DNA of 64,000 nucleotides, taken from assembly GCA_032358255.1 (NCBI GenBank), contig JAULBX010007774.1, forward strand, positions 55,809 through 119,808. Direction: 5' to 3'. Shown piece after piece: positions 146 through 51,000 of this stretch. The notes beneath the pieces were generated by a model, which had not been told where the DNA came from, made no database searches, and saw only the letters and a list, made by a program, of their open reading frames with translations. The DNA is from Heterotrichella gracilis. Its lineage: Eukaryota; Sar; Xanthophyceae; Tribonematales; Xanthonemataceae. Each line of letters opens with the position of its first letter. The first letter of the stretch is position 1. The translations under genes were made by a program, and so were the position numbers.

Positions 146-3100
146 GCACCCTGGCGTCCTGGGACCCTACAACCAGGGCCAGCAAGGTCTCAAGGAGGCA
201 GAAGCAGCGGGTGCAAAAGCAGGCGGGCATCTCCTCAGGGCCCCAAGCCCCAATGCCCAATCAGGTGCAGCCTCCTGAGATGGGGCATGCCACGTGTCAG
301 CCCATGGCTGCGCCACGGCAAGGGGGTGCAGCAGCATCGGGAACACAGCCATTGGGATTGGGGGATGACCCCCGGGATGGGACACATTCTGGAGATCAAT
401 TGGGTGATCGCCCAGGCAGTGGGTCTATGCTTGAAAGTGTATTTGGACCTCCAGCGACGACCTCCTCCCTGAACCCCGCCCGCACCCCCACCCCCTTCTC
501 CTCCCCAGTGCCAGCGTTTACCCTAGGCCAGCAGCCGCAACCTCTGGCTAGGGTTTCACCGCAGCCGCAGTGGGGCAGGGGCGAGCCGTACCCTAGCGGA
601 ACCCTCCACCCCAGGGAAACCATACCGGAGCTTGGGTTTGGACCCGTTTCCCCACTGCCTTCACCGCTGCAAATGAGGAGCAATCTACCTGTGGGGCTCC
701 CGTTTTCGTCTCAGCCCTATGGACTTCCAAACCCTCCTTCCATGGGCAGCCATCAGGTGTTTAGCATGGGCTCTCACCCCTCCAATCTGGTGCTCTCCAT
801 GAGCAGCCCCGCTGCTGACGTCAGCATCCACTTCAGCAACCCAGCCAACCAGGCGGCGACAAGTGGCACAGGTCGGTGCTTGCATCTGCCTCAAAACTGG
901 GTGCCCGTTTTGCTGGGCATAATCATGACTTGGAAGGTTATACGCTGTGACGGACCCAAAGACGAAAGTACACTTTGAGTAAGGTCCCAATTGGCCTGAA
1001 TCCTGTGATCAAGTAAGACAACATCGAAGTAAAATCTTTATATATTGCGCAGGTCTGCCAACCTCTGGAGGAACGTTCGTGGTCTCGCGTGGGCTCCCCA
1101 CAGCCCCCCTGGCGCCCCACCACACACCCCACCACCAGCCCGCACCCGCCTCCTCCGCGCCAAATGACGACATCTGCCGCAGCCTTGCTGATGTCACCAG
1201 CAAGCTTGCAGCCATCGCACAGCAGCTGGCGGGTGGGGGTGGGGGTGGGAATGGTGGGGGTGGGGGTGCTCACTCCCCCCAACCTGGGCTGAGGGGGGTG
1301 ATGGGGATGGATTTGGGGCGGCCGCCGCCGCCACCGCCCCCACCATTGGCACCCATGGCGCAGGGGGTGGCGCTGGGTGCGCCACAGAAACCAGGCAACA
1401 CATATATGGGGCTGGGTGAGGCGGTGGGAGGTGGCGGTTATGGGTCGGGTGGCGATGGGTGGAGGGGCGGCCAAGGGGGGCAGCAGCAGTGGGTGGAGAG
1501 GGGAGGGAAGAGGCAGGGGGACAAGGGGAGGTGGACTGGCCAACGCAACAGGTGCGGTGCCGGTGTTGTCTGCCAATTAAAAGCATTTATTTTTTGGTAC
1601 AAGATGGATTCCAAGTAAAAAGCTGTATTGCCTGATTCATCAATGAGCTGCATGGTTGGAGCCTGTGTTACATTATGGATTATAATGATGTGTTAAATTT
1701 CTGGCGATCAGCATGTGCAAGCCCACAGCATTGATAAAACCGTCAGCAACTGCAAAGCCAATCGCACATTGTGTTTTTTGTTGCCATTCACTCACTGTTT
1801 TCTCCCCGATTTGCCCCACACAGGTCTGGCGCAGCCCCCTTGTCTGAAGAGAACCGTGATGAGAAGGAGCGCATGAAGCTGGAGGCGGATGGAGAGCGAG
1901 AGACATTCAACCTGCACATCCAGGCGCAAAAGATGTTCCAAAATGTAAGATGTGGCATTTGTTCACCTTGGAACATTGTCAATTGCAAAAAATGGCAATT
2001 TTGAACGGTTCTTCCCACACTGTTGGTCATTGTCTTGGGATGCCTGTCTGTGGTCGGCTGGTGGGAGTGTGCGCCATTGTTGGATACGGCTGTTGTTGGC
2101 CTGCATGTCGTGCTTCCCATCTCAATTCCTGCGCCCATGGCCCCCTTACGCACCTGCCCACCGCCTCAGGCAGCCAACGCCAGCTTTGCGCGTGCTGAAC
2201 TTAGGCCTATCCACTATCCCTAATGTGGCCCCCAAGCTTTCCGTGTGCAGGCCGCCAACGCCGCCTTTGAGCGCGGCGATGCTGGCGCAGGCAAGGAGAT
2301 GGTGCGCAAGGCCAAGGAGCACGCGCAGCTGGCACAGGACTCCAAGCGCAAGGCCAACGAGGCGGCCTACACCAGCAGCAATATAGGGCTGCAGAACAGG
2401 CTGACGGTGCGTTTTGGTGGGGTATGGGGGGGTGGGTGGGATGCATGCTATGTTGGTGTGAGCGCCGGCGGCCCAGAGTGTAATGGGCAAGTGTGTGTGG
2501 CACAGGCATGGCTATTCGTGTACTTGGTATGCTGTGCTTGCATTCCGAAATTGCATTCCATTGGCTGCATCATGCGCAGACGGTTTTTAGGGTTTAGGGT
2601 TTACCCTAAACCCTAAACCCTGACCCCTGCATCATGCGCAGACGCGACAATGAACTCCTGAGCACCATCCTCAGTTCCTTTCGCATGCAAAACTTCCCTG
2701 GATCTCCTCCCTAATCCTGTTCCCAACCTTTTGTTCTTATGTCTGAAAGTTTGTAAAATTCCTCCCCTGATATATGTTTCAACCCCTTCTCCGCGTCCAG
2801 GTTGACCTGCACGGCATGCATGTTGACGAGGCACTGCAGGCATTGATTAAAATGATTATGCAATTCCTCCCCTGACATGTGTTTAACCCTACTCCCTCTC
2901 CCCTTGCAGGTTGACCTGCACGGTATGCACGTTGACGAGGCGCTGCAGGCACTTGACCGCCACCTGGTGCACCTGGCGGGGCTGGGCCATCCTGACGGCA
3001 TCATCCTGCAGATCATCGTGGGTAAGGGTACTGTAGGCTGTACAGGGTGCAAGAACGTAGACAGTACAGGGACTGAAGCAGGGACAGGGGTAGGGACGGG

Positions 3101-3470
3101 GACAGGAAGAGACACTTAGGCAAGGTCCTGGGTTCTGAAAGGGTCAAAATTGAACAAAATGCACGTTATAATCATGTGCAAGTGAGTCTGTATGCCTTCC
3201 CCATTGCAAGGGTGAACCAAATGCAACTGGGTGAAGTAAGTACGGAACTGGACTCGCATTTGTGAAACCCTAAACCCTAAACCCTCCCTTACAGGTGTGG
3301 GCAAGCACAGCGAGGGGGGCCGTGCTCGCATCCAGCCTGCAGTGGTGCGCGATCTGGAGGAGCGGGGGGTCAATTCCTGGGAGGAGCCGGGCAACCCGGG
3401 TCAGCTAAATGTGCTCATTGCGGGGCCTGGGAATGTGGGCAAGGGGGACGAAGGGGGGCTGGAGGCGTGA
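146..3470 (+). CDS. DUF1771-Smr domain protein, CID5/6/7-like (5' partial)
   Basis: Six exons join in phase: 146-871, 1053-1551, 1824-1944, 2251-2406, 2910-3021 and 3295-3470, giving 595 residues plus TGA. The first visible exon follows an acceptor at 144-145, so the true start lies left of the window, and positions 1-145 look like intron. The N-terminal two thirds is low-complexity Pro/Gly/Met/Ser. It holds SSLNPARTPTPF near 470-505, which resembles a PAM2 motif (binding site for the poly(A)-binding protein MLLE domain), as in plant CID proteins. Exons 3-4 encode a helical DUF1771 (AANAAFERGDAGAGKEMVRK). Exons 5-6 encode the Smr domain with VDLHGMHVDEAL and a GKHSEGG-type loop. Smr domains bind or cut RNA and act in ribosome rescue or mRNA decay; here a link to poly(A) mRNA is inferred. 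The family call is firm and the PAM2 call tentative. The intron before exon 5 carries a broken copy of that exon. Confidence 0.88.
2565..2644. repeat. Head-to-head telomeric repeat between 18-bp direct repeats
   Basis: Inside the intron 2407-2909, CTGCATCATGCGCAGACG occurs exactly at 2565-2582 and again at 2627-2644. Between the copies lie 44 bp made of TTTAGGG units followed by CCCTAAA units, an inverted telomeric array. The layout looks like telomeric DNA inserted at a staggered break, with the break ends duplicated. The sequence is direct observation; the mechanism is inference. Confidence 0.9.
2757..2956 (+). repeat. Tandem partial duplication of the Smr exon 5 start
   Basis: The acceptor region and the first 42 nt of exon 5 (2910-2951) are preceded by a copy at 2801-2842 with three mismatches. 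The match extends into the intron (CCTCCCCTGA at 2761 and again at about 2866). The upstream copy keeps a CAG acceptor and encodes VDLHGMHVDEALQAL, but then loses homology and reaches a TGA, so it is a pseudoexon. Use of its acceptor would truncate the Smr domain. Confidence 0.9.
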
Positions 3471-4067
3471 GGGGGTGTTACAGCTGCCCAGGATGCGTTT
3501 GTTGCGGCAGTGTTGGATGTCGCACTGTAAGGGTTTCGGGTTTGGCTGCAGCGCACCCCCCCTCGAGGTTTTGCGCCTCTCGAGGCCCCCCTCAAGATCG
3601 ATGTGACGTAATGCAATGGTCCTCGAGTGCGATGATGACGTGAACCATAAAATGGTTCCTTGTAATGACTGCACATGGAAATTGGCACACGGAAAGCCTT
3701 AGGCTGAGCCATGTCTCACTGAGGACCGGTCAGAGCCTGACGTCACAAAACGCCTGGCAGTGCGCATGCAGCCGCTGACTTGGAAACGTGCAAATTTTTC
3801 GATAAAAAAATAGAGAAAAGAAGACACGAGAAAAGAGAAGAGATATTCGTAAGGCACTGTAAGGCGGCGTATCAAATGTGACATAAAACTTGAAGAATGT
3901 GGAGGTGTTGAAATTCAATCACCAATGCAATGCAACACCAAACACTTGGTGCCTGGAGCATCTCCAGCACCAACGCAGCACTTGTGGGACCAGTTATGAC
4001 TCAAAAGCGCACCCATGACAAATACTCATATCCATTCATTATTTGACATTTCCGCCAACTTTAGCCC
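3471..4067. other. Convergent intergenic region
   Basis: This stretch lies between the Smr stop and the stop of the minus-strand kinase gene. TGTAA, the usual chlorophyte polyadenylation signal, occurs near 3527 and 3661 and could serve the Smr transcript. The short open frames show no recognisable domain, and I see nothing else in it. Confidence 0.6.
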
Positions 4068-7000
4068 TCAGCACCACCCATCGACCTCCCTGTCTGCGTG
4101 GCACGCCACCTGGTCATGGCTCTCCAGCAGCACTGTGAAGTAGGCATGCCTCAGGGCCTGGAGGGCAGTGGGGCGGTGGCCAGGGATCCAGTCCAGCAGG
4201 CTCCTCAGCAGGCGCACAGCCACCCTGCTGTGCAGCCCCTGGTGGGTGGGGTCCTTCTTCTTCAGGAGCTGCAGCAGCACAGCAGGGATGGGTTTCAGTG
4301 GGGTCTCAATAAACCCCTAAGACCTAAACCCTGAGACCCTACAGCAACCCTACTGCATATGTGCACACCTTGGTGGGTTTCAGGAAAACCCCAGAATCCT
4401 ATATCCTGACGTTGTAAAACATGACTAGCTGAGCTAAATGCCATGCCAAAGCCATGCCGAATCATTATGCTGGCATCGAGTATGGATCACCATGCAGCGC
4501 ACACAGCACGCTCACCTCCATGATGGCATCATCTGAGCAGCTCCAAGACACCGGCACGTCACCGCCATCCCCGCACTCCACCCTGCCCCTGCCATGGGGC
4601 ACTTCAGAGGTCACATTGACTCCCTCACTCGAGCCACATGGACCCGCGCTGGGTTTTGGTTTGCCCCTTGGTGGATACACACACAGCTCCATCAGGCCAC
4701 GCAGCAGGTAAGCCAGCTGCTGCTCCTCCTCTGTTTTGTCACCCAGCTTGAGGTTGTGATGCAGGAGTGCGCGTGTGTGGTGGCTGATCTCAAACACGTG
4801 GGGGGTCCCAAGTACCAGCTCCAGCCACACCACACCCACGCTCCAGATGTCATAGGACCACGTGTTGGCTGCAGTTTGCTTGCCGTACCAGTACCTACAT
4901 GGCATGGCAGCAGACCGCTTCAGTGGAATTTCACAACTGCAAGTTCTGTCACCTGGCAGCTTCAACTTCATTTGATGTATCAAAACCGCACCATGTTGAG
5001 TGCTATTTTACTCCAGAGATTCTTTGTCAAAAAATACAAACAGGCAGAACTTACCTGCCAAAAACGGCTTCCGGCGGTGCATACTCCTGAGTTTGTTCTG
5101 CCTCTGAAGGTCCTTGACTGCCATACAACTGGTCAATTGTCGTCCCATCCACAGCAGATCCAAAGTCAATCAACCTCAAGTGAACTGGGCTCTTACTTGG
5201 GTTTTGAATCAGCAAGTTTTCAGGTTTGACATCCCTGCGGCAACAACACAATTTCGATCACTATCATGGGGCAGGCATGCAGAGAGCCAGGTCACTCTGC
5301 AAATTTGCAGATTCGTGCAATTATTGTCGGGCGTGAGATATAATGTGTATGGTGGTGTAATGGCAATGGAGCATGCAGTCATGCCAATGGCCCATCTGAT
5401 TGCCAAAAAATACCCTGGATGGCTCAGTCAGGCCTCCACAAGCCATTCCCGATCAATGTTCAATACCAGCTCCAAGGATAACAGCCTCATCAGCTTTTAA
5501 CTTTGGCAGCATCAAATATGGAGCATACCTGTGGGTCACGTTGACTGCATGTGTTGCTGCGAGCCCCATCAGCAGCTGTCCCAACATGTCTCGGATGATC
5601 CCCTCCCCGCGCTCACTCTGCCGCAACTCCAGCCACCATCCGCTTGGCCGCATGATCTGCACCTCCCCAATCACGTTGCTCTCTTGTGCATTGCCAGCTG
5701 CTGGCTGTGGCGCAGCAGGGTTTGTGCCTAGTTCCTCCACTGGGAATTGAGTGGTCGACGTGGTGTACATTAATGAATGGATGGATGTGCCCTCATCTTG
5801 GAACACAAGCCACAGATCCATCCCCACACGAAACCTCTCCACAAAGCGCACCTGTTGCATCAAGTACACTACTATATCAAGAATATTTGTATGTAGTTGA
5901 AAAAAACAAAAAAGGATAGAAAAAAAGCAATCGACAAAAAGCAATAGAAAGAAAAAACCAATATTGGCCCGAAATCATATTCAGTGGGACACCAAACGTA
6001 ACGCACTTACCAGATGATCATACCCATCAAGGGTGGGGCAATTTGCTTGCGCATCAGAGCACAATGACAGCGTTTTCCCCGCCTGCAGCAGGCTGCCGAA
6101 ATACGCCTCTCGCAAACCGCTCAACTTGTAGTTCTCGCCCTTTTCCACAAATATGCGTTTCATAACAACAGCTTCGTGACCTGGAAAGATGAGAAACGAT
6201 GAGCATACTAGTACGAGCCAGAATGCAAAAGAAATGGTTTGATCAACACACATTGCTTGATTCACTGAATACCTACCGGCCTGCGTTCCAGCCTTCTGTT
6301 GCGCCCGGTATGAGAGGGGCTTCCTGAACGCTTTCCACACCTCACCAAAACCACCTGAAAAATGGTCGATTATTCATGTTGGTTATATGTAAACAAATCC
6401 ATGGTGTGCTCACCTACAACAGATAGAGCTCTCACCTTTGGCAAATTGCTGTTTGAGCTTGTAACCCTGCTTGCTGCTCGCATCACTGTCTGCCCTGCTG
6501 TATGCTTTCAAGCCTCTTCCTGACTGTGAGCGATGAATGTTGGACGCCATGCCTGGCAGCATGTCAAGCAGCAGAGGTATGGTAGCAAGAGACTTGATCA
6601 AAGCGGTGGACAGTGGAAGTGCGTACTCCTGTTGTTGAGCTGAACAATATCCCTGATCGTCCCACGGCTGCACTGCGCAGGATTTGAGATCAAACTTTAT
6701 GACTTCTTTCGACCTGCCACCACTGGCTATCACCTCCTCCTCCTGTGACAAAGTTGCTACACTGCTAGACTGTGAGGCAGCTGCATCTGTCCTATCTGTC
6801 CTGTCTGTCCTGCCCTGGGAGTCAGACGTCCCTGGACCAGGCTGAACCACTGACACAGCTGTGTCAACGTAGCTGGCATACATTTCAGACAGCTGCAGGT
6901 GGTCGGGGAACACATTCTGGCTGCTGGGTACTAACGTGAAACCATCCTCAGGCTCAAACAATGTGTTGCTGTGCCAGTGGTCAACGTCTCCTGGCAACAC

Positions 7001-9610
7001 CTCCACCAGCTCAAAGCTGTATTTGCTGTCTGCACACCCCAAGGTAGTGCCTGCCACATATCCGACGCTGGTAGGAGACACTGATTGACTCCATGAAGGT
7101 TCTGGTAAAGTGGCATGGCACGGCATGTGCGGCAATGTCCCAAACGCCAGCACTTCTTCCACTAGATGACTTCTGTAGCCTGTTGGTAGAGCTGCTGGCT
7201 GCAATGCATTATTATCATCCTCGGCGTTGAGCTGAGGGGCCACAGTAGGCTGTAGATCAACAGCAATCACAGCAATGTTATCAAATGATCTACGATTATA
7301 AGCCTCTTGTGCAATCCTGCAAGCAAACGCAGCAGGAAGTTAATTCAGCGTGCAGGATGCCCATTGTTTACTAAAAATATTGGAGGCTTACATGCCAAAT
7401 CCCAGGAATTTGGCACAAACACTGAGATCCCTTACATTTTACTTCTACTAACCCACATGGGTGCCTGCATCCATGCTTATGTTTGTTGGTACGTATGCGA
7501 TATTGATTGTTTCCTCACCTGACAGCAACAGTCTGCTGCAAGGATGTCGCTGCGCACACCAATGGGGCTTTAGAGTCCATGACCTGGTCGCCACATACTC
7601 CCCAACTGTTGGTGGTCTGCTCAAGTATGCCTGCAGGCACAACCCAGGAATTGAATCAAGAACTTAATTTATCTAACATCATGTTCCAGAAGCTTGCTGT
7701 GTTTCAACCAGTACCAACCGCACCTGCTTGTTGCGCTTCATTCCCAGAGGCTCCTGCCTCTATTGGGCCCAAAGCAATGACCGAAACTGTTTTCGGCTCT
7801 GTGGGCACAAAGGTTCCTGGTCTTGATTCCTCAGCCACTTGACATACTTCCTCATCGCTCATACTCTCAGTAACCCCGTCGGTCAACAAAATCAAATATG
7901 TATCCCCTGCAATTAACCACATGAGAGGTCAGCCAAAACGATGTTGTGATGCAATGCAATCAAAGCTGCTCCTTCAACCTTCTTTTCTTCCAAGCTACTT
8001 TTCTTTCAAGCTACTCACCAGCTGTGATGTTGTAAATCAGTGTCTCTGGTTCTGCGATGAGACCGTGTGGCCTCAGCTCTACATCACCTATTGACCTGGA
8101 GATTGCCAAATCCCCCTGCAACCTTGGCTGGTCACCTGTGTACACCCACCCGCCTATCGCGTCATAAATGCTGTGAAATACATTGGACCGTGCGCAATGT
8201 CATTCAACTACCGATTAATGACCAATTTGTATCACGCAAAGGACCTGATTTATACGCGCCAGAAGCCACGACCAAGCAAGCCACGCACCTTTGTCGTTGC
8301 TGACAAATCCACCCTGTTCAACAATTCTCTGATATTCGTCCTCTCTGAGAGGTTTGTGGTCTACCGTCAGTGCTCTTGCATGCAGCCCCCCACCAGGCAG
8401 CACTTGGCAAATCAAAACCCTGCAAGTTGGAGCAAAACGCAACTTAGTACCCCGGCGACCATATCTGATCCACCAAGAGGGCATCTGCTTTCCTTCATGC
8501 AATTGCAGATCATCTGATCATCATGACCACATTCCATGGTGTCACCTTGAATCCCCAACATGGGCAATCACGGCTTGATCATTGACAACCACAGCAGCTG
8601 CAACAGTGCTTCCTGCTTCCACTGATCTGTGCCTTGCCGACTGACAAAACTCTGTGTCGACTGCCCGGATGCTGTTCTCAAGTGCCTTTCTCACCATTTC
8701 TGGCGTGAAATTTTCACTGCAATCCATGCATTTATTGTCCTTAGTTTATTTTATCATTAATAATTCGGGAAATATTTACTTGCAAAAAATAGCAGTTCGA
8801 TCCATGTAGCGCAACAGTAAGTTGGCACTGGCATTTGAACATGCACTACCAGGTGCAGTGAAGAGAACTGGTGGCTTATGCAGTGCAAGGCGATCAATCG
8901 GCGCACCTCGTCTGCAGTGCGCCGTCCAGGTGGGAGTGCAGCGTGTCTAGCAAGAACTGGCTTGCATCTGGTCCATCATGGCCATCATACACTGCGTAAA
9001 AGCTGCACATCAAGTGAGTATATATGCTCAGCCAGCTCAGGCTTACTCCTGGTCAAAGAATCCAGACCTATTGTGCTGGAGCTTAGGGTAGACGTGGGAA
9101 CTCCGCAACACAGGTCAGCAAGAGTGCCGGTGCAACCTTGTAACCGTCCACCAGGAAACAAACACCCTTATTTGAATATGTATGTATGCAGCAGGTATGG
9201 CAAGCCTTAACGTAGGTGTTTGGTATAGCGTTGGCACACCTGGCTTTCTGCGCCTCGCCCACTGTCTCCCCAGTCCGGTTGGAATAGAGGTGGACACACA
9301 CTGCCCGGTCCTCCATCTGCCATGCAAGGCAAGAGCTGTCACATGTTCTCATCAGAAGATAAGACAGCACCCGTGCAACGTTGTGAGCATCTCAGGATCA
9401 CACTGGGCTGGCAAGTCTCCAAACAGCCCACCACCCCCGCGTTGTGCTCACCGTCGCACGTCGCCCTTGCAAGAGAGCAACTCCGCAGGCCGCACAGCAT
9501 CCTGTCACCTTTTGACAGTAGGTCACCCACAGGAGCTTGCTGATCAAAACCACCAGGAGCAGCACGTGTGACACCAGTGATGCACACACTCTGCGAGGTA
9601 CCCCCTTCAT
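4068..9610 (-). CDS. PP2C phosphatase-protein kinase fusion
   Basis: Fifteen exons join in phase to 1,091 residues: 9610-9452, 9316-9240, 9002-8907, 8716-8546, 8419-8289, 8153-8019, 7906-7724, 7630-7519, 7316-6436, 6354-6277, 6180-6011, 5851-5529, 5234-5055, 4894-4516, 4268-4068. The chosen ATG gives MKGVPRR followed by a hydrophobic stretch, so a signal anchor or signal peptide. PP2C motifs follow in order: RRATMEDR (to 57), FYAVYDGHDG (metal Asp85), VIAHVGDSR, LAISRSIGD, LLTDGVTES (Asp266) and RSFDNIAVI (Asp367). A linker leads to the kinase: glycine loop GGFGEV from 649, VVMK (Lys682), HRDVKPEN (Asp840), DFG (Asp862) and YAPPE. The order matches the Arabidopsis PP2C-kinase fusion At3g63330/At3g63340, whose kinase half is annotated as inactive; here all core kinase residues are present. 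Substrates are unknown. The start is the weakest part of the model. Confidence 0.88.
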
Positions 9611-10071
9611 GACATCCTTTACAGGCCTCGATTGGTCCACCGCGAGCCCAGGTGCACAATATTCTGCCAAGGTTAGGTTCCTGTGCTGTACGAGATATAC
9701 AAGCGCGTACTTAACCGGTTTCACAAACCCGCTAGCCCACTCACATGCATGCATGCATAATATTCTCAACAATCAGTGATTGGCCATGGCTTGCATGCAC
9801 AATATGAACACAAATCTGGTTCTTGACTCGAACTGGGCTGCCAATGTGCTCGTCAGGTTACGGGTTGTGCACCAAATGCCTAAGCTTCTAATATCCGTTT
9901 GCATGCATCGCCCGTGTCACCACTCCTATAACTTCCCCTCACAGAACTTTGCGACCACATATCAGCAATATGAAGCTCAGCCAAACATTCTTGTGCAACG
10001 TGCAAATACTTTTGAGCCACTGTTCAACAGAAGCGCGCACTTGCGTATAGTCGCACGTCCAGGAGTGTTTC
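9611..10071. promoter_or_regulatory. Divergent upstream region, PP2C-kinase / START-like
   Basis: About 460 bp separate the two proposed starts and should hold both promoters and 5' leaders. It is rich in CATGCATG-type tracts near 9744-9760. No TATA box or named operator is convincing. An open plus-strand frame from 9780 runs through it without recognisable content. Confidence 0.45.
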
Positions 10072-26004: not shown

Positions 26005-29000
26005 TCATGCAGCGGCGCGTGGTAGGGGCGCGCCAGGCATCCTCCCCAGCGCCCCTGCCCCGGGTGCGGTGCTGTACACTCCTGCTGGTGCCGGGATGTC
26101 TGGGTTGCTGTTCAGCTCGCGGGTCTGGTCGTCTGTTAGCCGGCCAGCAAATATCCCGGGGCCAATGAGGTCCCGCATTGAAGCGATGCAGTGGCCGGCC
26201 GACACTTGGCAGTTGCGGTGCGGGGCGTGCAGGGAAGTGAACAGAGAGGGGAGGAACAGCTCCAGGGAGGGCTTGAATCCCTGGCAGGCAGCGGGGCAAG
26301 ATGAGGACACAGATGCAATGCTGATCAGTACGAAAACAAAGGCATCCCTCTGGTCTACTGAGGGCCCAGGAACAGAAGAGTGCACTACTTTTACAGGTCC
26401 CTCACCATGCTGGTGCAATGTCCATCGACAACCGCCAGCACCACAGCCCACACACCACAGCCAATCACATCACACTGCCAACCCTACCACACCACCACCA
26501 GCCACTCACCCGCTTGCCCACATGCTTGGCAATGGCAGGCAGCTCCTTGAACACAGTCTGGCGCAGGTTGTAGCAGTGGCCAAAGCCCTCCAGGCGCGCC
26601 AGCTCCGCCAGCTCAGGGAGGAACTCCTGCGCAGACGCAGGCGCCACCTGCGCCAGCTCCCGCACCATGTACACCGCGCCATCGGAGGCCTCCCAGGGCT
26701 CCCGCTGGCGCGAGAAGCCGTGGTCCATGCAGCCGCCGCCGCGCTGCAGCTTGGGCGCCAGGCTGCCGCAAGAGAACATGACCTGCAGGAGCGAGTTGCG
26801 GTAGGGTTTTATGTTAGGGTTATGCGCTAGGGCTTTGTGTTAGGGTTATGCGCTAAGGTTCCTGTAGGGTTCAGCAACGGGGACAAGTATTTGTGCAAGG
26901 CATCCATTGTCCTTGACACAGCTATGACTACAGTCGAATTTGTTGCCTGCATGCTATCATGTCCAGTTGCATCTCAAGGGATGTACCACTGCGCCAGCCA
27001 AAGGCAACCTCACCTGATCAGAGAACGCCTTGCGGCTGCCGTGATGCGCTAGGGTTTTCTGTTAGGGTTATGGGCTAAGGTTTTGCTATGGTTTCTGGTA
27101 GGGTTGACCAGCGGGGGCAGGCTCACCTGATCAGAGAACGCCTTGCGGCTGCCGTCGCTGTCTGGCACGCGCTTGTATGCCGCCACACCAAACAGGGTGG
27201 TGTTCTCCAGGCTGCCAAACTGCTCGCTGTCTGGCGGCTGCTCCCGAGCCTTGGGCAGCATTTCCCTGCGAAGAGTGAAACAAAGTGCATCGGTACGGTA
27301 GCCTCATGAAACAGATTGTACAACCCCATTTGCGGCAAGGTTTTGGCTCCATCACATGTATGCTTCTGATCGGTCTCAGCAACGCCAACAAGGACCCTCA
27401 GGCTTCAGCTCTGGCAACAAAGCACTACCGGCCATCGCAATAGCACATATCTTGTGAGCCACAACCGCATCCAGTCCTGCCTGGCTGCAAATCCAGTCCA
27501 GTTTTGCATGGCTGCAACCCACCTGACCACCGGCAGGATCTTGTCCAGCGCCTCCTGGCCATATGCCCGCACCGCGTCGCCCAGCGCCACAGCTGAGTCC
27601 TCGCGCACCGAGTAGATGTTGTCCCACAGGTGCGCAAACCACAGCTCGTACAGCTCGTCAAGAACCTCGCGTGACTCCTCAGGGAAGGCGCGCACGCACT
27701 TGCCGCACGCAAGGCACGCGGCGTCCCGCACCTGGTGGAGCAATTGCTGGTCAGCTAGCCAGTGGCATGCGTTACATGGTTCAAATGGGAGGTACATGTT
27801 TTTCCACAGGTGCGACTTGCCCGGCAGTGTTGGTCAGCTAGCTAGCTACATGCACACATGGTTCAAGGGACCGGTCAATAGCACATTACATCTCTGCACG
27901 TGATTGCAATCCATTTGCCTACCAAGAGCTCTGCATATCATTACAGCCCATTCTCCTATCACCCTGGGAATTTCTGCAGGATTGGCCATCCCAAATGAAT
28001 CACTGGGCAGGTATTACAAGCCAGCATGTAAGTAGCTAACTAGCAAAAAACAAAAAAAAAAAACCCACCGGCCAGCTGGCATCCTTGAAGCAGTTGACCA
28101 GCGCGCGCAGCATGCGCGGCACAAATGGGCTGACCGCCAGCGCATCCACCTTGCTCATCAGCTCGGCGAGGCACGCGCAGGCCGCCTCGCGCACCGCGTG
28201 GTTGGCCGCCTTGCTCTGCATGATATAGTAGTCCACCACCTGGCAGACAGAGGTTTGGAATGTGGAATGTGGCGCGGATCTGTTGACCCAGTGGAATAGT
28301 GTTATAAATTATTTTGCCACTTGAAAGCAAAGACACAGGCGACGCTTGTGCTGGTAGCTCGTTTGGCCGTATAGCTGGAAAGCAGGTACATGTTGATGTG
28401 AAATAGATAGGAAAGCACACTGCATGATACACAATCCTCATCATCATTTGTGCATTTCCCAAACACTAACATATTGTGTATCCAGAAAATACAACGCCAT
28501 GCAATCCATTTGGAATTGCATATCACCTGCCATGATTTATTTAATTATTGCGAGTTGATTACGATTGCTCAGCATACCTGCGCCGCGCACTTTGCCACCC
28601 ACTCCCGCCCGCTGCTGCCCATGACCAGCTGCCAGGTCTGCTGCGAGTAGAGCCGCACGCCCTCCGCCACGTAGTAGCGGTTGAGGCACATCTGGGCCAA
28701 CAGAGTGGGAAAATACTCCTGCTTGGCATCGCCAGCCGCCTCCATGAAGGCGCGGGTGCCAACTGACGCAGCAAAGCGCACCTGTTGCGTGCCCAATGAT
28801 GCACGTGGTTAGGACAACAAAGGTGTACCCTGTGATTTATTGGCCTTTCAAACGATAATACCCTAGGATAAAACGCCAATGAATCATAGCTTATTATTTC
28901 ATCTCATGGTTGCGCCATGGTGGCATTGGTAAAAAGTGCCTACACCTACACCTACACCTACACCTACCCATGCTATCAACTGCAATTTTAAATTATACGC

Positions 29001-31173: not shown

Positions 31174-34100
31174 ATGAAGCTTCAACTTTTGGGTAGCAAG
31201 GGTCAAGCCACCGCCCCTGCCCACCAAAGCCACACAGGGATTGCCAGGCCCTTTCACCAGCAAACCCGCAGCCCTTTGCCTTTTGTGGCACCTCTAAAGC
31301 TCTCCCAGCAAAATAAACGCGACTGGGCAGCTTCCGTAGCTAGCGAAATCGACGCAACCACTGCAGCCTTGGACAGTCTTGGCGATGCCAGCACCCGTAA
31401 CACACAGCTGCTTGCTTCTACCTCAGGCAGAACATTCCCCGACCGGCAAAACCTGCACGACTCCAAGGCCAGGCTGATGCTCAAGAACCTGACGTACCCG
31501 GAGCTCGTGGAGTGGGTCTCCTCCCTGGGTGAGCACCAGTCCCTCGTGTTCCAATGGTTAGCCCACCATATGCATGCATATGCGCAGAATTCACTTCCTA
31601 GTTTACCAGAGTGGATTTGCTCGCTAATTTCCCAGACTGGAACACACCGGCCATAAAGCACTACTCACATTTTATGCATGGACCTTGCATACATACACGC
31701 AAATTGTGTGCACTGCCATGGCTAAGTTTAACCCTAAACCCTACATGCTAGATTGATCAACTTGACCTGACATCAAAGTATGTTTGAGATGGCTCAATGG
31801 AGGTTCTCGTGTTCAGGTGAACGTGACCAGCGAGCCATGCAGCTCTGGCGGTGGATGTACTACGACGACAAGTGGGTGCAAGACATAGACCACGCCGCAG
31901 GGCCCCCTAACGGCTTTGGCCAAGCATTCAGGTGACATATTGCAGCCGCACAATGTATCTGACTCTCAAGTTTGTATGGCACACCAGGTACTGCTAAGGT
32001 GATCGACCATCTGTCACATTGGGGACACTGAGTAATTTTCATGACCTTTGTTGTTTTAGTTAACCCTCTTGAGAGATTTACTTTTACCATCATTTCAGGG
32101 ACAAGGTCCGCAGCATCGCAACAGTCGATGGCGGGCTTGAGCTGGAGAGCATGCAGACAGCCTCCGACGGCACCCGCAAGCTTGTGTTTACCCTAACGGA
32201 GGGTGAGGCCAAAGGTGGCAGTGTGGAAACCGTGCTCATACCCATCGTCAGGGAGCAAGGCCAGAAACCCCGGACCACTATCTGCGTGTCTTCTCAGGTA
32301 CGTGCTGGACATAAATAATAAAATATTAAATGGAATGTATTCAATTGATAATAAACTAGTAAGTTGGTTAAGTATACGGTAACCTTGAGTGTGCGCCGCA
32401 TGTTAAGTACGATGGCGTTGGTTGGGGTAGGGACAGAGTGGTAGAGAGCCAGCCTTAGAGTTTGTTGTGTCACAATATGTCTCTACCATGTGCTGGACCT
32501 AGGCCGCATGAAAGCTGGCAGCTGCGCCACTGAGTGCACCACAAGGTGGACCACACGCTCGTGTTGCCCCATGCGCCGGCCACTTTTTCCACATGGATTG
32601 GGAAACCAGCCATCGCCACGTGCTGGCCCCACCAAACCCCAACACTGCCCCGAAGCGCCCATCCAATGCCCCTCGTCTCTTTCCAGGTTGGCTGCGCCAT
32701 GAACTGCCAGTTCTGCTACACGGGGCGCATGGGGCTGCTGGGTAACCTCAGTGCCGCACAGATAGTGGAACAGCTGGTCCAGGTGCGCAGGCAAAATATC
32801 GGGGGGGAAATAGTTGGACAGGAGGGCAATGCCTTTCCATTTGCCAATTCCCTGTGCGTGCCTGCTCAAGGACTGGTTCAATGGCTGCACAGTCCTTGAT
32901 TATCTCAGTCAATAATACAAAATACAGCAATTACAACGATTTTAATCCAGAATGATCGTCAATTGAGACTGTAGTAATGGTGTAGTTTCAATGCGTAATC
33001 CGAACAGTTGTAAATGAATCAATAACCTCTCTGAAATATTTGTCCATTTTTCTGTCCAGGTGCGCAGGCTGCTGGCAGCCGAGGTGGCTGCAGGCGGCCC
33101 CGGCATGTCCCCCGTCACCAACGTGGTCTTCATGGGCATGGGCGAGCCGATGCACAACCTGGAGGCGGTGCTGGCGGCGGTGGACATCATGTGCAACCCA
33201 TGGGGGCTCCACATGTCGCACAACAAGGTGAGGCGGGGGTGCTGGTGGGTGGGGGCACATTTTCGCCCGATTGGGCATCATGCGTCACTCGTGGGAACTG
33301 CGCATGTGGCACAGCTAGGTGAGGTGGGGGTCAGCGGGCACTGGCGGGGGGGGTGCTGGTGGGGGGGGCTCTTTGATATGTCACCCACCCCTGGGGCCTG
33401 CTCACTTCTCAATGATTGTACATTTAGCAATTGGTGTGAATAATAACACGTACTAAATCATATCTGGGTGCAGATCTCGGTGTCTACGGTGGGTCTGGTG
33501 CCGCAGCTGCGGACCTTCCTGGAGCGCAGCCGCGCGCAGCTGGCGGTGTCGCTGCACGCAACCACAGACGAGACGCGCGACTGGATCGCGCCGGTCAACC
33601 GCAGGTGGAACCTGAGCCAGCTCATGGGGGCGCTGCGGGAGTACTTCCCCAGGGGCTCGACCACTGGGCCACATGGCCGCCATGTGCTGATCGAGTGAGT
33701 GGGGTCAGCAAGGGTATACACGCATGTGCAGCCCACATTGCCACTGGTGAATGGTCGATGGGTTATTGTGTGTAGCCAGCCAGAATCATTGGGCGAAACA
33801 TTGGGCTCGCCTCTGCATATTGCCGTGAATTTCCTTTGTGGCTGTGGCTTCTCCGGCAAATAGACAATAAATGGAAGGGGATGGGCAGCGTGTCACTGAT
33901 GCTGGTGGGTTGCTCACAATTCCCTTGCTGTTGCTGCTTGCATGCCATGCTGGTATTGAATCAATCCTATGTATATTACTGGTTGGATCAAATACTGTAT
34001 TGATGTTTAAATTAATATTTGTGATTCTATAGTCCATGTGCTGTGGTTGCAGGTATGTGATGCTGGAGGGCGTGAATGACAGCCTGGAGGATGCTCATCG

Positions 34101-41496: not shown

Positions 41497-41505
41497 ATGC
41501 AAACC

Positions 41506-42479: not shown

Positions 42480-43240
42480 GGACTCCACTTCTCTGCGCCT
42501 TCTAAGCAGCAGCGAGAGGGCGTCGCCCACTGCGTTTGGTGGCTACCAAATAGGGACACCAACGGGCCAGACGCAAAGGGGATTGCATGCAATCTGTTCA
42601 AACCGCAGCGGACAGACTGGTGACGCGTGCATCTGGTCTGGATCACTGTGGCAGAGGATGGGATGTGGACCAAGCTCCTAGACTGAAGTGGGCAGTGAAG
42701 AACGTCGGAAGCAGGCAGCATGAATGTGCACAGTTTGGACCAGCTTCTGCAGCAGCGGGATGCGTGCTCAAGCCTGGCGTGGTAGCAATGCAGTTGCCAA
42801 TGCAGCCCCAAAAGCCAATCAGTTGTGACGACGGTGTTACACAGATGCAAGCGTGCAGACCTTATTGCATGCCCTTTGCTTCCCACGTTGGCAGTTGCAG
42901 CTGTGGTGTGCAGCTGACCACCAGCATGCCGGCCAGTTACTTCACTGGATGCTTCTCATCTTGCGACCAGTATGCTCAGTTGCACACTGCAGCCATGCAT
43001 GGCTGCAATTTCCGAACAGAAAAGTTGCATGTCATGCCTGATGTGGCGATGAACTGTTGCAACTGTTTTCCTGTAAGCTGTCAGCAAGGTTGGCATATGT
43101 ACGGATGAGCACTGCACTGCAGCCTTGGGTATATCTGCAGCCTTGCCCTTTCTAGACCACTGGAGGTGCATGGTGGGCACCACAACCCTTGTTGAGGGTA
43201 TTAACAGGGGGAGAATTACCCGAAATGCAAAACGGGTAGA
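42480..43240. other. Intergenic region between plastid protein and HSP90
   Basis: This holds the 3' UTR of the small plastid protein and the distal upstream region of HSP90. A 173-codon frame at 42587-43108 is open but Cys/His/Gln-rich, has no family signature and no splice partners; I treat it as chance. Nothing else is seen. Confidence 0.45.
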
Positions 43241-43354
43241 TTCCAGAAGTCTCCAGATGGCCGCCTACTGTCCGCCTATTCCACTGAATTTTGCAGCGCC
43301 GTCGGCAGCGGCGGGATGGCCCTCGAGTCGAGTGCTGTTTGCAAGTTTCTAGAG
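43241..43354 (+). promoter_or_regulatory. Candidate heat-shock elements upstream of HSP90
   Basis: TTCCAGAAGTCTC at 43241-43253 fits TTCnnGAAnnTTC with one changed base. TTCTAGAG at 43347-43354 is a second near match. They lie about 300 and 190 bp before the ATG, a plausible promoter distance for a heat-shock gene. Such short sites also arise by chance. Confidence 0.45.
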
Positions 43355-43540
43355 CCATCCGGCGCTTGGCTGCTGCGGTTCAAAACAACGAGTTCGCGGG
43401 TTGTGGCCACATACATCAACTGACGCTTTGATTGCACACTTGTGGGTTTTTTGTTTCCTACTTGTGATCGCGCCTGGCCATCGCACAACCGCTATACACC
43501 TTTGTTATTGAGTTTGCCTGGCGGCCATACACTTGCAAGC

Positions 43541-46500
43541 ATGGCTGAGGGCGATGTGGAAACCTATGCATTCCAGGCTGAAATCAACCAGCTGCTGTCC
43601 CTGATCATCAACACCTTTTACAGCAACAAGGAAATCTTCCTGCGTGAGCTTATTTCCAATGCATCCGATGCTATTGACAAGGTCCGCTTCATGTCCCTCA
43701 CGGACAAGTCTGTGCTTGACTCCAACCCCGAGCTGTATATCCACATCATTCCAGACAAGACCAACAACACCCTCACCATCGTGGACTCTGGCATCGGCAT
43801 GACCAAGCCCGACCTCGTCAACAACCTGGGCACCATCGCCCGCTCGGGCACCAAGGCCTTCATGGAGGCCCTGTCTGCTGGCGCTGACATCTCTATGATT
43901 GGCCAGTTCGGCGTGGGCTTCTACTCCGCCTACCTGGTGGCCGACCGGGTGACTGTCTACACCAGGCACAACGACGACGACCAGTACGTGTGGGAGTCCC
44001 AGGCCGGTGGCTCCTTCACCATCGCCCGCGACACCTCTGGGGAGGTGCTGGGGCGTGGCACCAAGATCATCCTGCACCTCAAGGAGGACCAGCTCGAGTA
44101 CCTGGAGGAGCGCCGCCTCAAGGACCTCATCAAGAAGCACTCGGAGTTCATCAGCTACCCCATCTCCATCTGGACCGAGAAGACGGTGGAGAAGGAGGTG
44201 GACGACGACGACGAGGTGGAGGAGATCAAGGAGGATGAGGAGGGCAAGGTGGAGGAGATTGAGGAGGACAAGCTGGTGGAGAAGAAGAAGAAGAAGGTCA
44301 AGGAGGTGTCCCACGAGTGGTCCCTGGTCAACAAGCAGAAGCCCATCTGGACCCGCAACCCCGAGGAGATCACCCGGGAGGAGTACAACGCCTTCTACAA
44401 GTCGCTCACCAACGACTGGGAGGACCCACTGTACTACAAGCACTTCAAGGTCGAGGGCCAGCTGGAGTTCACCTCGGTGCTCTTCGTGCCAAAGTAAGTG
44501 ATACAAACAAAACCCATATGCTGTTTTATTGCTTTTGCACCTGATCTTGTCTGCCTTGCTTGCATGGTGCTGCTTTGGGTGTCGTTTCGTTTCGTTTGTT
44601 TTTTCGACAAAGTGCTGAGTGGCTGCTGACCTCTTCCTATGCATGCTTGCAGGCGGGCGCCCTTCGACGCCTTCGATGGCAAGAAGAAGGCCAACAACAT
44701 CAAGCTGTACGTCAGGCGGGTGTTCATCATGGACAACTGTGAGGACCTCATGCCCGAGTACCTCAGCTTCGTCAAGGGCATCGTCGACTCTGAGGACCTG
44801 CCCCTCAACATCTCCCGTGAGATGCTCCAGCAGAACAAGATCCTCAAGGTGATCAAGAAGAACATCGTGAAGAAGTGCCTGGAGGCCTTCAACGAGATTG
44901 CTGAGAACAAGGACGACTTTGCCAAGTTCTATGAGGCCTTCGCCAAGAACCTCAAGCTGGGTAAGTGACACTGACCCCTTGTGCTGCTGCATGCACAGTG
45001 CACATATGCTTACTGCTGGCTGTTCAGTTATCTGCTTTGAACAGTCATTCCACCTCCATGCATTGTGTATGCATGCATACGGCCACCGGCCAGTTGAATG
45101 CATCCTAGTATGGGCACGCATGCACTACTGTTAGTGCCTTAGCATAGCCAGCTTTATTTTACACTTTATTACTATTTTTTCCCCCGTTCATCTGTCTGGG
45201 TATTCTGTCGGAAATTATGGCTCCTGGCACAGTCATGCACACCCTCTGCTGCCCCTGTCCGAGCGTGTTGCCTGTGGCTTGCCATAGCCGCCACGGGTAC
45301 TCAATATTGCACTCATCATCATCCTCAATATTGTACTCCATCTTATTCCTATTCTTGCCTGCAGGTGTGCACGAGGACAGCCAGAACCGGGCCAAGCTGG
45401 CCGAGCTGCTGCGCTACCACTCCACCAAGTCGGGCGAGGAGATGACCTCCTTCAAGGACTACGTCACCCGCATGAAGGAGGGCCAGAAGTACATCTACTA
45501 CATCACCGGCGAGAGCAAGAAGTCGGTGGAGAACTCGCCCTTCATCGAGAAGCTGAAGAAGAAGGGCATCGAGGTGCTGTTCATGGTGGACCCCATTGAC
45601 GAGTATGCAGTGCAGCAGCTGAAGGAGTACGACGGCAAGAAGCTGGTGTCCTGCACCAAGGAGGGCATCGAGTTTGACGAGACCGAGGAGGAGAAGGCCG
45701 CCAAGGAGGAGGTCAAGGCCAAGGTAGGACCCTGGACCCCTGAACCCTAAACATCAAAACCCCAAACCCTAAACCCCTGCAGGTGATGCACCCTAAGGCA
45801 AGCACCTCTGAAACCTGTTTCCTTCTGCTCTGCTGCTGCACTCTGCCACCACATTATATTCATGTGCTGTTGTTGCTTGGACGCCTCACAGCCCAGTGTG
45901 CTGCACTTTCCGTGCTGCTGCTGGCCTTTCACTCTGGTGCACGCTGCTGCTTTTGCTACCTGGTCGTTGCGTGACCCTAAACCCTCAAACCTAAACCTGC
46001 CTTTCCCCCCCGATGCCTCCACCCAGCGCCTCACCCTCCTCCCCCGCCCCGCAGTTTGAGGCCCTGTGCCGGCTGGTGAAGGACATCCTGGGCGACAAGG
46101 TGGAGAAGGTGGTGGTGTCGGACCGCGTGGTGGACTCGCCCTGCGTGCTGGTCACCGGGGAGTACGGCTGGTCCGCCAACATGGAGCGCATCATGAAGGC
46201 GCAGGCGCTGCGGGACAACTCCATGAGCGCCTACATGAGCTCCAAGAAGACGCTGGAGATCAACCCCGAGAACGCCATCATGGAGGAGCTGCGGAAGCGC
46301 GCCGACGCCGACAAGTCCGACAAGACCGTCAAGGACCTGGTGCTGCTGCTGTTTGACTCGGCGCTGCTCACATCAGGTAGAGGAAGAACCCTTAACCCTG
46401 AACCTGAACACGTGGTAGATACATGCATTCCAGTTCGCAGCAACATCAGCAGGCGGTTTTGCTCATGCGCCGCACTTTGATGCTGGCAACGTTGTTCATA

Positions 46501-46940
46501 CCTAGACGTGCCTACCCCGTGTACTCTACCAAACCACAATGCATCAAGGAACCCTAAGCCCTGAACCCTAAATCGCAAACTCCACCCTGGATCTAAACTT
46601 GGACAATCCCACACTGTTTTTGTGCCCCTAAACCCTAACCTCTCAATCCCAAACCCTAACCCTTGCCCCGCTCCCCGCAGGCTTCACGCTGGACAACCCT
46701 CGTTCTATAACCCCACCAAACTCAAAACCCTATATTTTGAACCCCAAACCCGAATTCATTGTGCTCCTTTCTGCAGGCTTCACCCTGGACGACCCCAACA
46801 CCTTTGCCAACCGGATCTTCCGCATGATCAAGCTGGGCCTGTCCATCGACGAGGATGTGGATGTGGAGGGGGCGGACGATGACCTGCCACCCCTGGAGGA
46901 GGATGTGGATGAGGGCTCCCGCATGGAGGAGGTCGACTAA
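43541..46940 (+). CDS. HSP90A: Cytosolic heat-shock protein 90
   Basis: Five exons in phase (43541-44493, 44653-44960, 45365-45723, 46055-46376, 46777-46940) give 701 residues, the usual length. The N-terminal GHKL ATPase domain starts [20 protein letters not shown] and holds [25 protein letters not shown] and [15 protein letters not shown]. An acidic and lysine-rich linker (residues about 215-255) follows. The middle domain has [17 protein letters not shown]. The C-terminus ends in MEEVD, which binds TPR co-chaperones and marks the cytosolic/nuclear paralogue. No transit or signal peptide. It matures kinases, receptors and other clients in an ATP cycle. Codon use is strongly GC-ending, as in a highly expressed gene. 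Introns 3 and 4 contain degenerate CCCTAAA tracts and a partial copy of exon 5. Confidence 0.98.
45740..46755. repeat. Degenerate CCCTAAA tracts in HSP90 introns 3 and 4
   Basis: Imperfect CCCTAAA units occur at about 45743-45776, 45972-46000, 46388-46410, 46549-46575, 46626-46668 and 46706-46752. All lie within introns, and some closely precede acceptors. They match the plant-type telomere unit. Confidence 0.75.
46675..46796 (+). repeat. Partial copy of the HSP90 exon 5 start
   Basis: CCGCAG followed by GCTTCACGCTGGACAACCC at 46675-46699 repeats the true acceptor and exon start at 46771-46795 with two changes in 19 exon bases. The copies are 96 bp apart. The upstream copy loses similarity after about 19 nt and would shift into non-HSP90 sequence if used. 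Confidence 0.85.
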
Positions 46941-48008
46941 GCGACAATGGCAAGGGGCCAGCAGGATGCAGCTAGTTGTAGAGCAGCGAGGGTGTGGGGA
47001 GGGCCTGGTGCGCGGGGGCGCGTTGGGATTCACGCAGCAGCAGTAGTAGCGCAGCAATGCCTGGTGCATCACTGTGTTCATTGGACGCGGTGCATGCGCC
47101 AGGCTGGGATGCATTTGTGATTATGGGCAACTTTCAGAACATTCATTATGTTGGACAAATTTGCAAGCGATTGTGTGGCGCAATGGCCTTTGCAGCAATT
47201 TGCACCACCCAAAGGACATCATACACGCAGATTGACATGTCACCAATTCACTTTCCATCGGGTTTCAGTTTTCCTTGCCCTCAGTACGGGCTTTGTACGC
47301 ATTTCGTCGTAGCAATTGTCACCTGGACTGATATAAGTTGGGCAGTTTGATGGCATGCCTCTGGTTGTTGCTGATGACCTTGATTCAGGCCATCCGCATC
47401 AGATGCAGCAAGATTCTTTGAGACTTCCCTGGGACGTGTGTAATCATTCAACACCATCATCCATGTTGCTCGGCAACTGTTCCAGCGCGATTGATAATAA
47501 ATGTGGCTGCAGCAGCAGCTGTGTCATGCTGCATGGCATGTGCATATGCATGGACCACTGGTGGGCAAGTTGTGCATGTCATGCGGCGGCATTCAGCATA
47601 ATTCCATGGAGTCTAGCCAGCTGTTGGATGGAAAAGAAAGAAAGGGATCGCAGAGTTGAAGGCACAATGCATTTGGAAGTTGTGTCTGCACAGCAGCCCA
47701 CTGTTGGGTGGTGCTGAACAGTTACTGAGCCATTGCGTCACTCTGACTGTAGCAGCCACCGTGCCGCAAACGCACTAGGCGATATGGCAGCCAATCATTG
47801 TGTTGGAAACAATTTTGCGAGTGCCACTACACGGTGTACCCCATGGACAACTCAGCCAAATTTAATCCAAGTAATAATCCCCCCATTTCACTGCACTGGC
47901 AAGCCCATACCCACCCATGACTCAACTCTTTGCTGGTAATATGCTGCCACAGCAGCAAGCACACCCCCAGTGACTGCCACAGGGGGAGTAGGGACGCAGT
48001 CGGTGTCC
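46941..48008. other. Convergent intergenic region
   Basis: About 1.07 kb lies between the HSP90 stop and the GCP5-like stop. It should contain both 3' UTRs; TGTAA at about 47438 could be a polyadenylation signal. Open frames such as 47355-47717 show no domain or exon structure. Confidence 0.5.
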
Positions 48009-51000
48009 CTACTCCTTGTAAAACCCGTTGTAGTTGAGCGCCAGTACCAGGTAGTTCAGCTCAGACAGGCTGCCGGTCTTTGCAGCGCGCAGGCCAAGCA
48101 GCCTCAGTAGGTACCGGTGCTTGTCCTTGAACAATGCTGCCAATGCCTCAACCTTGCGCTCCAGCTCATCAGCCCTTCTGCTTGTGCTCTGTTTGGCATA
48201 AGCCGCATCCTCCTGCACAGCAGCATTCACTTCAATGTCAAGAGTGAACAATTACATGCTTATCTACTCCCCATATCTACAATATGGTTCAATCAGGTAG
48301 GCCGGGTGTGGTTTAACACCCACCCCCTTTCCTGTAATGGGACTAAATCGTGGACACATTGGAGGAACCCCGACTCACACATGTTTCACCATGTAACCAT
48401 TCCTAACCCATGGCAAGCTTTATCGCTATGCTGCCTGCACCAGCGAATGGCTCACCTGCAGCGGTGAAGCCAGGTCGCCATAAGCTGCGCAGAACTGCAG
48501 CACCACATCCAACACGCCGTGCACTGCCCTCTCCAGCACCCTGCACAGCTTGTCCGGCAGCACCATGCAGTGGCGCATGGCGTCAGACAGGAACTGCGCG
48601 TGCGCTGCCGAAGCATCATCCAGCGTGTTTGCAGACTCCAATGCCTGCAAGGGGTGTAGGGTTATGGGCATGTGGCTGGCTTACATGCATTTGGCGATCC
48701 AGCCAGGTTCGGCAGTCAACTAGCACATCCGGCGCCAAGGAGCCTATCCCAGGGTGCACAGCCTTGCGTAGGCTCCTCAGTATTTGCACTAAGGATACCA
48801 TTTAATGGATAAAGAGTGTCAGAGCCCTGTGCGCTTACCTGCTCCAGCCCCTGCCAGGCTGTGTGCAGCACCCTGCTCATCACGTACTGGTGCAGCGTGC
48901 TGACAAAGTGGTGCATCTGGTGGTGCAGGGCGCCCCTGCTGTCCAGGCCAAGCCGCCTGGCCCGCTGCTGTGTACGCTGCTGGGCCTGTTCAAGACCGTG
49001 CTTGGCCCAGCACACCTGCAGGATACATACATACATAAAAATGTACAGTACGAGTACCTGTATTCAATGATATAGGCAAGTAGAAATTGATTTGTTCCCC
49101 TCGTCATACCCCTCCTTGGCGAAACCCTACGACCCAACCACGAACCCTTACCAAAACATCCAGCCCCAAAACCCTAAAACCCAAACCCTACCACATGCGC
49201 TGCGCTCACCTGCAATAGGAACACCAGCACCCTGTTGTAGTCCTGCAGCATTGCGTCATCCACAATGAGCGACAGCGGCCAGCTGACGCGGTAGGCAACA
49301 CTCAGGCCAGACAGCTCTGACACACTCCTGGTGGGGGTGGCGGTGGTGGTTCCAGTGGTGGTGGTGGTGTCCCTGGTGGAGGCGCTTTGACTGGATTGCA
49401 TGCAAGCGGCGCAGGACACTGCAGAGGAGGTGGATGGCGTGTGTGTGGGGAGTGGGTGGTGAATTGTGTGTTTGGGGGAGTGGGAGGGTGTGCCTGAGGT
49501 TGTCATGTCACCAGTGTCGAGGGAGCCATGTAGGTGGTGGGTGAAGGCAGCCTCCCACAGCATAGTGAGCAAGGCAGGAACATATAAAAGGACAGCGCTG
49601 GTTTTCCAGGACGATTACCCCTCACCCCCACCTGATATGCTCTCCGGCGCTGGCAGGGGCACCTCCTCAGTGGACGCCACCAGCGCCTGCTGCAGCATGA
49701 GGTCCAGGTCAAACCCCCTGATGTCGGCCAGGGAGCGCCCCCCCGCCAGGCGCTCCGACAGGCTGTGGCTGAACGCCACCATGGTGGGTGAGCCCATGAG
49801 GAAGATGTTGCGCAGCAGGGCGAGCTCGCGTTGCAGGCCCCAGTGGGTGAGCACACGCTGGAGCAGCGCCTGACTTAGGGCATCAACCTGCAGTGGTGGT
49901 GGTGATGGTGGTGGGGGTGGGAGTGTTGGAATCCTTAGTGGAAGGTTTATAGGTTCATGGAGGAAAGGGTTCCACAGGTGGCGGTGGGTGGGGATTTGTT
50001 TTTATGGGTGAGCCCATGAGGAAGATGTTGCGCAGCAGGGCGAGCTCGCGTTGCAGGCCCCAGTGGGTGAGCACGCGCTGGAGCAGCGTTTGGCCCAAGG
50101 CATCCACCTGCAGTGGCGGTGGTGGTGGGGGTTTTGGTGGAGAGTGAGCGGGTTCAAGGTGGAGAGGGGTTCAAAGGTGTTGGTGGCGGGTTTTCATTCT
50201 GGGCGAGCCCATGCCGGAGCTGTTGCAAGGCGAGTTGCCGCTGCAGGTCCCAGTGGGTGAGCAGTGGCCCTACCGTGGTACATGCCCCCAATGCGGTACA
50301 TGTTTGGGACAAGGGTTTCCAGCGTGGGAGCGGCACCCACCCGCAGCTTGATTGGCTCCACCAGGGTGTGGTTGAGCAGCACAGGCACAGGTGGCAGGCG
50401 GCAGCGCGACATGGTCGCCAGCCAATCAGTGTCCTCGGTGCCATCCTGCCTGGGACCCACATGGGGGAACAGGCCACGCAGCCCGCAGTCTGCACCACAA
50501 GTCATCATCATCCTCAGATGAGGGCCTCATCATTGGGTACATGCATACCAGCCATAAAAGCAGTCAGCCTTGCATCAGCAGCGCCGTGCAGCACTATTGT
50601 CCTAGTTGCACCATTTGACCTTGCCCAATTTGAGATCAATGTCACCACACGCCATGCCTGTCATGAACATGTCATCCACAACCCACGTGCAGGGTGTTAC
50701 TTGTGCACCGCTGGAGTGTATGTGTGGTGGTGAGTGGAGGGCAACACTACCTTTGGAGCTCACATCCACCTCCGCCATTCCCTGGAACACCTGCCACAGC
50801 CGCTGCATCTCATGGCTGCCTGATGCATGTGGTTCAGCGGGGCCCACTGTGCCGCCAGCTGCCTCAAAGGGGGAGTCAAATAACCCCCTGGGCTGAAGCA
50901 TGGCCTGCAACCAACGGAGTACAAGGCCATATGACAAGACAGGTTTAGGGGAGGAGAAACATAAGCAAATATAAGTGAACCTACAGAAAGAAGGAACGGA

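Follow-up and report, generated by a model that had tools for sequence, protein, structure and literature searches.

Exon edges and their splice sites recur as direct copies in the adjoining introns of one genome

The window analysed here, a stretch of 64,000 nucleotides (nt) corresponding to positions 55809-119808 of contig C80 in an assembly of 68.5 Mb and 903 contigs, includes an Smr-domain gene, a HEAT-repeat gene, an RlmN gene, an HSP90 gene and a gamma-tubulin-complex-like (GCP-like) gene. A preliminary description of this DNA reported that introns of all five genes carry short copies of an adjoining exon edge together with its acceptor or donor. All five cases could be located in the sequence, and in four of them (Smr, HEAT, HSP90 and GCP-like) extra copies are indeed found to the intron side of the true edge, acceptors upstream of the exon and donors downstream. 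The RlmN case is of another kind: an intron with an identical 16-nt sequence at each end. Homology to relatives or to domains is of help in telling the real edge from the spare copy. The features, with coordinates in the window, are:

2757-2842, repeated at 2862-2951, plus strand: duplication in the Smr-domain gene (period 105-109 nt; 1.9 copies by Tandem Repeats Finder; alignment)
2757-2951, plus strand: content of the Smr units, namely intron end, acceptor and 42 nt of exon; the copy is 2757-2842 and the real exon starts at 2910
27122-27155, minus strand: real exon tail (27127-27155) and donor GTGAG of the HEAT-repeat gene (34/34 match to the copy)
27009-27042, minus strand: copy of the HEAT exon tail and donor, inside the intron 26783-27126 (34/34; spacing 113 nt)
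27043-27121, minus strand: spacer between the two HEAT copies (alignment; 222-nt repeat)
32777-32792, plus strand: 16-nt direct repeat across the donor junction of RlmN (CAG/GTGCGC, the slash marking the junction)
32783-33059, plus strand: RlmN intron of 277 nt, equal to the repeat spacing
33054-33069, plus strand: identical 16 nt across the RlmN acceptor junction (16/16 against 32777-32792)
46677-46699, plus strand: copy of the acceptor and 19 nt of the last HSP90 exon, within the intron (21/23; spacing 96 nt)
46773-46940, plus strand: real acceptor and last exon (46777-46940) of HSP90, matched by HSP90 C-terminal homologues
49785-49920, minus strand: acceptor (at 49887) and exon start of the GCP-like gene, continuing into the gene
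50005-50140, minus strand: first copy of the GCP-like acceptor and exon start (spacing 220 nt; 90% over 136 nt)
50225-50263, minus strand: second, more decayed GCP-like copy, 190 nt beyond the first (33/39; alignment)

Read from 2910, the Smr exons match PF01713 with an E value of 8.4e-6 and 26.3 bits, just over the cut-off of 25.7. The HEAT-repeat protein without the copy fits relatives: of four aligned chlorophyte proteins, three cross the junction and leave no space for a second copy, and the fourth diverges there. Its three top-scoring matches are Chlorella ohadii and two Micractinium proteins (62-64% identity), and judging by these matches the source genome is that of a green alga (chlorophyte). 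For the HSP90 copy the flank is alignable as well (51 intron nt at 69%); the last exon itself scores 20.5 bits against PF00183, under the cut-off of 24.4. In the GCP-like gene the core of the repeat is nearly perfect (49785-49868 repeated at 50005-50088, 83/84), and the first copy was also called an exon by our home-made gene finder. Read with a single copy, the gene hits GCP_C_terminal in a Pfam scan of the longer reading (PF04130, E 1.3e-45); this match starts within the repeated piece, and it settles the GCP family while being silent on the number of copies in the protein. A search limited by length returned no protein relatives of this gene at E 0.001, and its fragment had no match in a solved-structure search or in a Pfam scan of the fragment. 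Rfam at the gathering threshold and ARAGORN gave no match within the window.

The preliminary description had suggested a genome-wide process of short local duplication behind these copies. We sampled the genome at 29 more places, each 10 kb long, and dropped two bacterial stretches and one of N, which left 26 loci and, with the window, 324 kb. The home-made gene finder called 330 introns and 487 exons, with splice signals that look sensible, half of the sampled sequence having no gene call. Exons of at least 30 nt provided 572 edges, of which 532 were scorable once low-complexity queries and short targets had been removed. A match counted as an edge copy if it scored at least 16 and lay no more than 600 nt away, on the intron side of the exon edge. 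The gene finder sometimes reads a copy as an exon, so that some edges are counted twice; the number of merged events corrects for this. Tandem repeats at 61187-64000 of the window were mostly excluded from the counts.

Of the 532 edges, 82 have a direct copy on their intron side, and these merge into 64 events (33 acceptor, 31 donor). The same edges gave 0/532 copies in shuffled targets, 0/2660 in foreign introns and 22/526 on the exon side. The rate is thus far from the shuffled expectation, equality with which had been named in advance as an outcome that would speak against a genome-wide process. The excess also holds outside the window, where 73/448 edges have a copy and 19 of the 26 loci have at least one such edge, compared with 3/124 exon-interior pieces (Fisher p 9e-6) and 20/459 intron pieces (Fisher p 2e-9). 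The observation of copied exon edges, spread over the genome and beyond chance, is confirmed. Repeat cores were also put through a rotation test, with a less decisive outcome than that for edges: events spanning a splice site numbered 21, where the rotations gave 10.0 on average and 22 at most. Acceptors with an event numbered 18 of 265, compared with 5.2 (at most 13), and donors 9 of 265, compared with 5.0 (at most 11).

The copies are direct and close, as expected of short tandem duplication. At score 16 the 532 edges have 82 direct and 0 inverted copies, at score 14 they have 89 and 1, and non-overlapping local repeats in all sequence number 125 direct and 15 inverted. The excess is limited to spacings below about 500 nt: direct-repeat pairs of score at least 17 number 148 at 20-499 nt, 2 at 500-999 nt and 3 at 1000-5999 nt, in a count over the first 26 sequences (the window and L002-L026) that includes the two bacterial stretches and the one of N and keeps protein repeats.

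In locus L010 four acceptor copies form a tandem array with spacings of 121, 110 and 112 nt, and L012 holds a like array at 117 and 114 nt with an older copy farther away. In both arrays the full unit is repeated without a spacer, the intron flank aligns too, and similarity falls with distance from the true exon; repetition of the full unit is not seen in the HEAT-repeat gene or in L026. Flank similarity beyond that of random places in the same locus was found in 34 of 98 long events, or in 26 of 87 without the protein-repeat array of L004, which contributes 8 of the 34, against a control that is lenient in that intron tails share composition. Compared with the real sequence, the copies are 89% identical in their exon part (2305/2586) and 83% in their intron part (917/1099), as would be expected if one of the two partners is constrained in the former and both are free in the latter. 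Counted by the codon positions of the real exon, the mismatches (86/850, 64/852 and 126/841) show a mild third-position excess, which fits a free copy beside a constrained exon. Among the 48 copies with an aligned block extending over the junction, AG or GT is kept in 42; the cryptic splice sites anticipated in the preliminary description thus exist in the sequence. Growth of introns, also raised there, is not borne out: median length is 199.5 nt with a copy (n=60) and 206 nt without (n=257; p=0.77), in a comparison in which some introns are split where the finder read a copy as an exon.

We regard short local tandem duplication, with copies that span a splice site being kept and then decaying, as the best explanation, and put its probability at roughly 0.75. 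Such duplications, with a unit mostly of about 75-230 nt, would arise often in this genome by DNA repair. A unit that spans a splice site would place its extra copy inside the intron, where it would be spliced out and be nearly neutral, while a duplication inside an exon would mostly disrupt the protein and be lost by selection. The surviving intronic copies would then decay freely while selection holds the real exon. The data show the excess, its direct orientation, its spread over the sample, how the copies decay and, for some cases, tandem duplication of intron flank along with the edge. We infer the selection filter against exon-interior duplications and, with less certainty, an origin of the duplications in staggered double-strand breaks that are filled in and then joined end to end.

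Several observations weigh against this explanation. Many copies have no detectable intron flank past 5-12 nt. An identical exon part can stand beside an unrelated spacer (29/29 nt in the HEAT-repeat gene, 25/25 in L026), such that only 40 of 113 nt and 30 of 99 nt of the unit align, which is unlike plain tandem duplication. Part of the HEAT spacer at 27043-27121 is similar to the 3' end of its own intron and unlike the sequence past the copied donor; a compound or templated event is therefore needed there. Edge events number 42 to 60 against 12 intron-only events, the range depending on how unannotated flanks are counted (24/115 events lie wholly outside gene calls), while simulated random placement gives 1.26 to 1, and slower decay accounts for only part of this excess. 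The exon part carried is also short, with medians of 33 and 47 nt against simulated values of 54 and 69.

The amount of intron in the units cuts both ways. Of the 22 acceptor events with a spacing of 75-136 nt, 21 include 54 nt or more of intron, where uniform breakpoints would put about 13 of 22 below 54; of the 17 donor units, 10 do so (Fisher p 0.013 against acceptors). Most simply, a unit would survive best when its 3' splice site is complete. The 54-nt rule was, however, spotted before it was tested, acceptors and donors do not differ significantly in a rank test (p 0.13), and the two acceptor events with spacings below 75 nt carry just 8 and 29 nt of intron. Finally, the spacings have modes near 105 and 193 nt, for which this explanation does not account. 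The modes had already been noticed when they were put to a test: 14 events lie at 186-195 nt against 3.9 under a smoothed null (reached in 0/5000), 10 at 137-185 nt against 23.3 (p 0.001) and 15 at 97-106 nt against 8.0 (p 0.014), the largest window of all giving a non-significant p of 0.076. As a guess, 193 and 105 nt could be one nucleosome repeat and about half of one. It is a tentative and on the whole doubtful possibility that short tandem duplications keep arising in this genome at a high rate and favour sizes of about 105 and 193 nt, perhaps set by chromatin, and that the copied splice sites feed new introns or shifted exon edges.

The unrelated spacers could also arise by templated insertion, in which a polymerase at an intronic break copies a nearby exon edge and leaves a short copy with unrelated filler. 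The HEAT and L026 spacers, the likeness of the former to another part of its own intron, and an 18-nt direct repeat around telomere-like filler at 2565-2644 all point this way. We nevertheless consider it unlikely as the general source: none of the 532 edges has an inverted copy at score 16, and clear tandem arrays of the full unit exist. Conservation of the splice dinucleotides could instead mean that selection maintains the copies as functional exons, alternative or tandem, a reading in line with exon parts that remain identical between different flanks (L021, 49/49 core) and with the gene finder's calling some copies exons. It is quite improbable, in that the third-position excess among mismatches is just mild, the copy in L017 is frameshifted, many copies end after 16-60 nt, and the HEAT-repeat protein fits its relatives with one copy.

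Introner-like or other mobile elements would account for the direct repeats flanking the RlmN intron, but the copies derive from the gene's own exon. In genome searches that skip very common words, neither the Smr region nor the interior of the RlmN intron has a match other than itself, and the GCP-like region matches itself with one further partial match of 46 nt. We therefore give mobile elements very little credence, and the many similar introns across the genome that introners would be expected to leave were not found for the RlmN interior. An artefact of assembly or gene models is comparably far-fetched. The assembly is a draft of 903 contigs with a bacterial contig among them, and the gene finder is home-made, but the repeat excess is independent of gene models. 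Assembly error is unlikely as the main cause because the copies are about 11% diverged from the real exon and decay gradually within arrays.

The preliminary description had also raised intron gain, and here the RlmN intron carries most of the suggestion. Once the 277-nt intron is taken out, the RlmN protein can be aligned with solved RlmN chains. An in-register run of 16 nt between donor and acceptor is expected 0.007 times among the 313 introns compared, and the short direct repeats flanking an intron that gain by break repair would leave are present. As the interior is unique in the genome, it is not a recent copy of a mobile element. The intron looks like a candidate recent gain, perhaps via target duplication or break repair, and its flanking repeats liken it to the new introns of Daphnia that PMC3488318 mentions as associated with repeats. 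Across the 313 introns, shorter in-register runs are in modest excess: 44 observed against 29.2 expected for at least 5 nt, 10 against 4.7 for 7 nt, 5 against 1.7 for 8 nt and 2 against 0.17 for 10 nt. A second intron, L008:6474-6634 (minus strand), has an 11-nt in-register match of donor and acceptor. Intron gain is thus suggested mainly by the RlmN case, with this 11-nt case and the modest excess in addition; as a general property we do not adopt it.

The type of mutation is already known. The papers compared here are cited from excerpts of their text. Ma, Lan and Niu (2016, PMC4974935) describe a tandem genomic duplication across an intron-exon boundary of a potato RdRp gene that made a new intron. 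There too the unit consists of the 3' side of an intron, the acceptor and the start of the next exon, with point differences between the copies. The potato case is one gene, with RNA-seq proof and relatives for polarity, whereas the algal cases are 64 merged events in 324 kb, known from genome sequence alone, and in the alga the extra copy seems to remain within the intron. The same paper mentions another tandem duplication, of 83 bp, inside an intron, and it recounts intron gain via tandem duplication of an AGGT-bearing exon segment (the model of Rogers 1989 and a vertebrate case of Hellsten 2011). In that model, as in the alga, tandem duplication supplies the splice sites; most algal units, however, span an existing splice site and not an exon-internal AGGT. 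The RlmN repeat spans CAG/GT, yet in contrast to the AGGT model we see no intron-exon similarity beyond its 16 nt.

Where breaks have 3' overhangs, small tandem duplications require fill-in by CST and Pol alpha-primase (PMC8355091, whose introduction refers to natural insertions in humans and plants). The excerpts of that paper note no size preference of the kind seen in the alga near 105 and 193 nt. In Drosophila, regional tandem duplication was proposed as the source of novel introns (Lehmann 2010, PMC2891723), but according to its authors the duplications are no longer backed by the surrounding sequence; the algal copies are still readable. We found no genome-wide survey of such copies in the literature on tandem duplication and intron gain, judging from titles and abstract openings in partial lists. 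What appears new is the abundance: judged from this one genome, the mutation looks unusually common.

Intron gain is poorly documented because source sequences are seldom recognisable (PMC4974935, as excerpted). With about one exon edge in seven having a readable copy beside it, the tandem-duplication route could be traced here at many stages of decay. Such a genome would show how splicing picks real over copied sites, and is suited to studying how new introns could arise. It also calls for caution, since gene finders can mistake the copies for exons, as ours did.

Some further features of the sampled sequence were noted. At 2565-2644 of the window, the insert flanked by the 18-nt direct repeat consists of 44 nt of telomere-like repeats arranged head-to-head, and its core motif occurs six times in the genome at no more than two mismatches (backward control 0). 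On the sense strand of introns in the sampled loci, the telomere-like words AACCCTA, AAACCCT and ACCCTAA reach 13-18 times the dinucleotide expectation, and the opposite-strand words TAGGGTT and AGGGTTT 8-10 times. L002 and L022, both from the 894-kb contig C1, have a guanine-plus-cytosine content of 36%, and L002 carries intron-free bacterial genes; by our reading C1 is a Bacteroidota-like companion or contaminant. The tandem repeats at 61187-64000 of the window read as coding proline-rich stretches on the plus strand, and L016:8337-8711, in sequence with no gene call, is an array of an element of about 30 nt at a spacing of about 69 nt.

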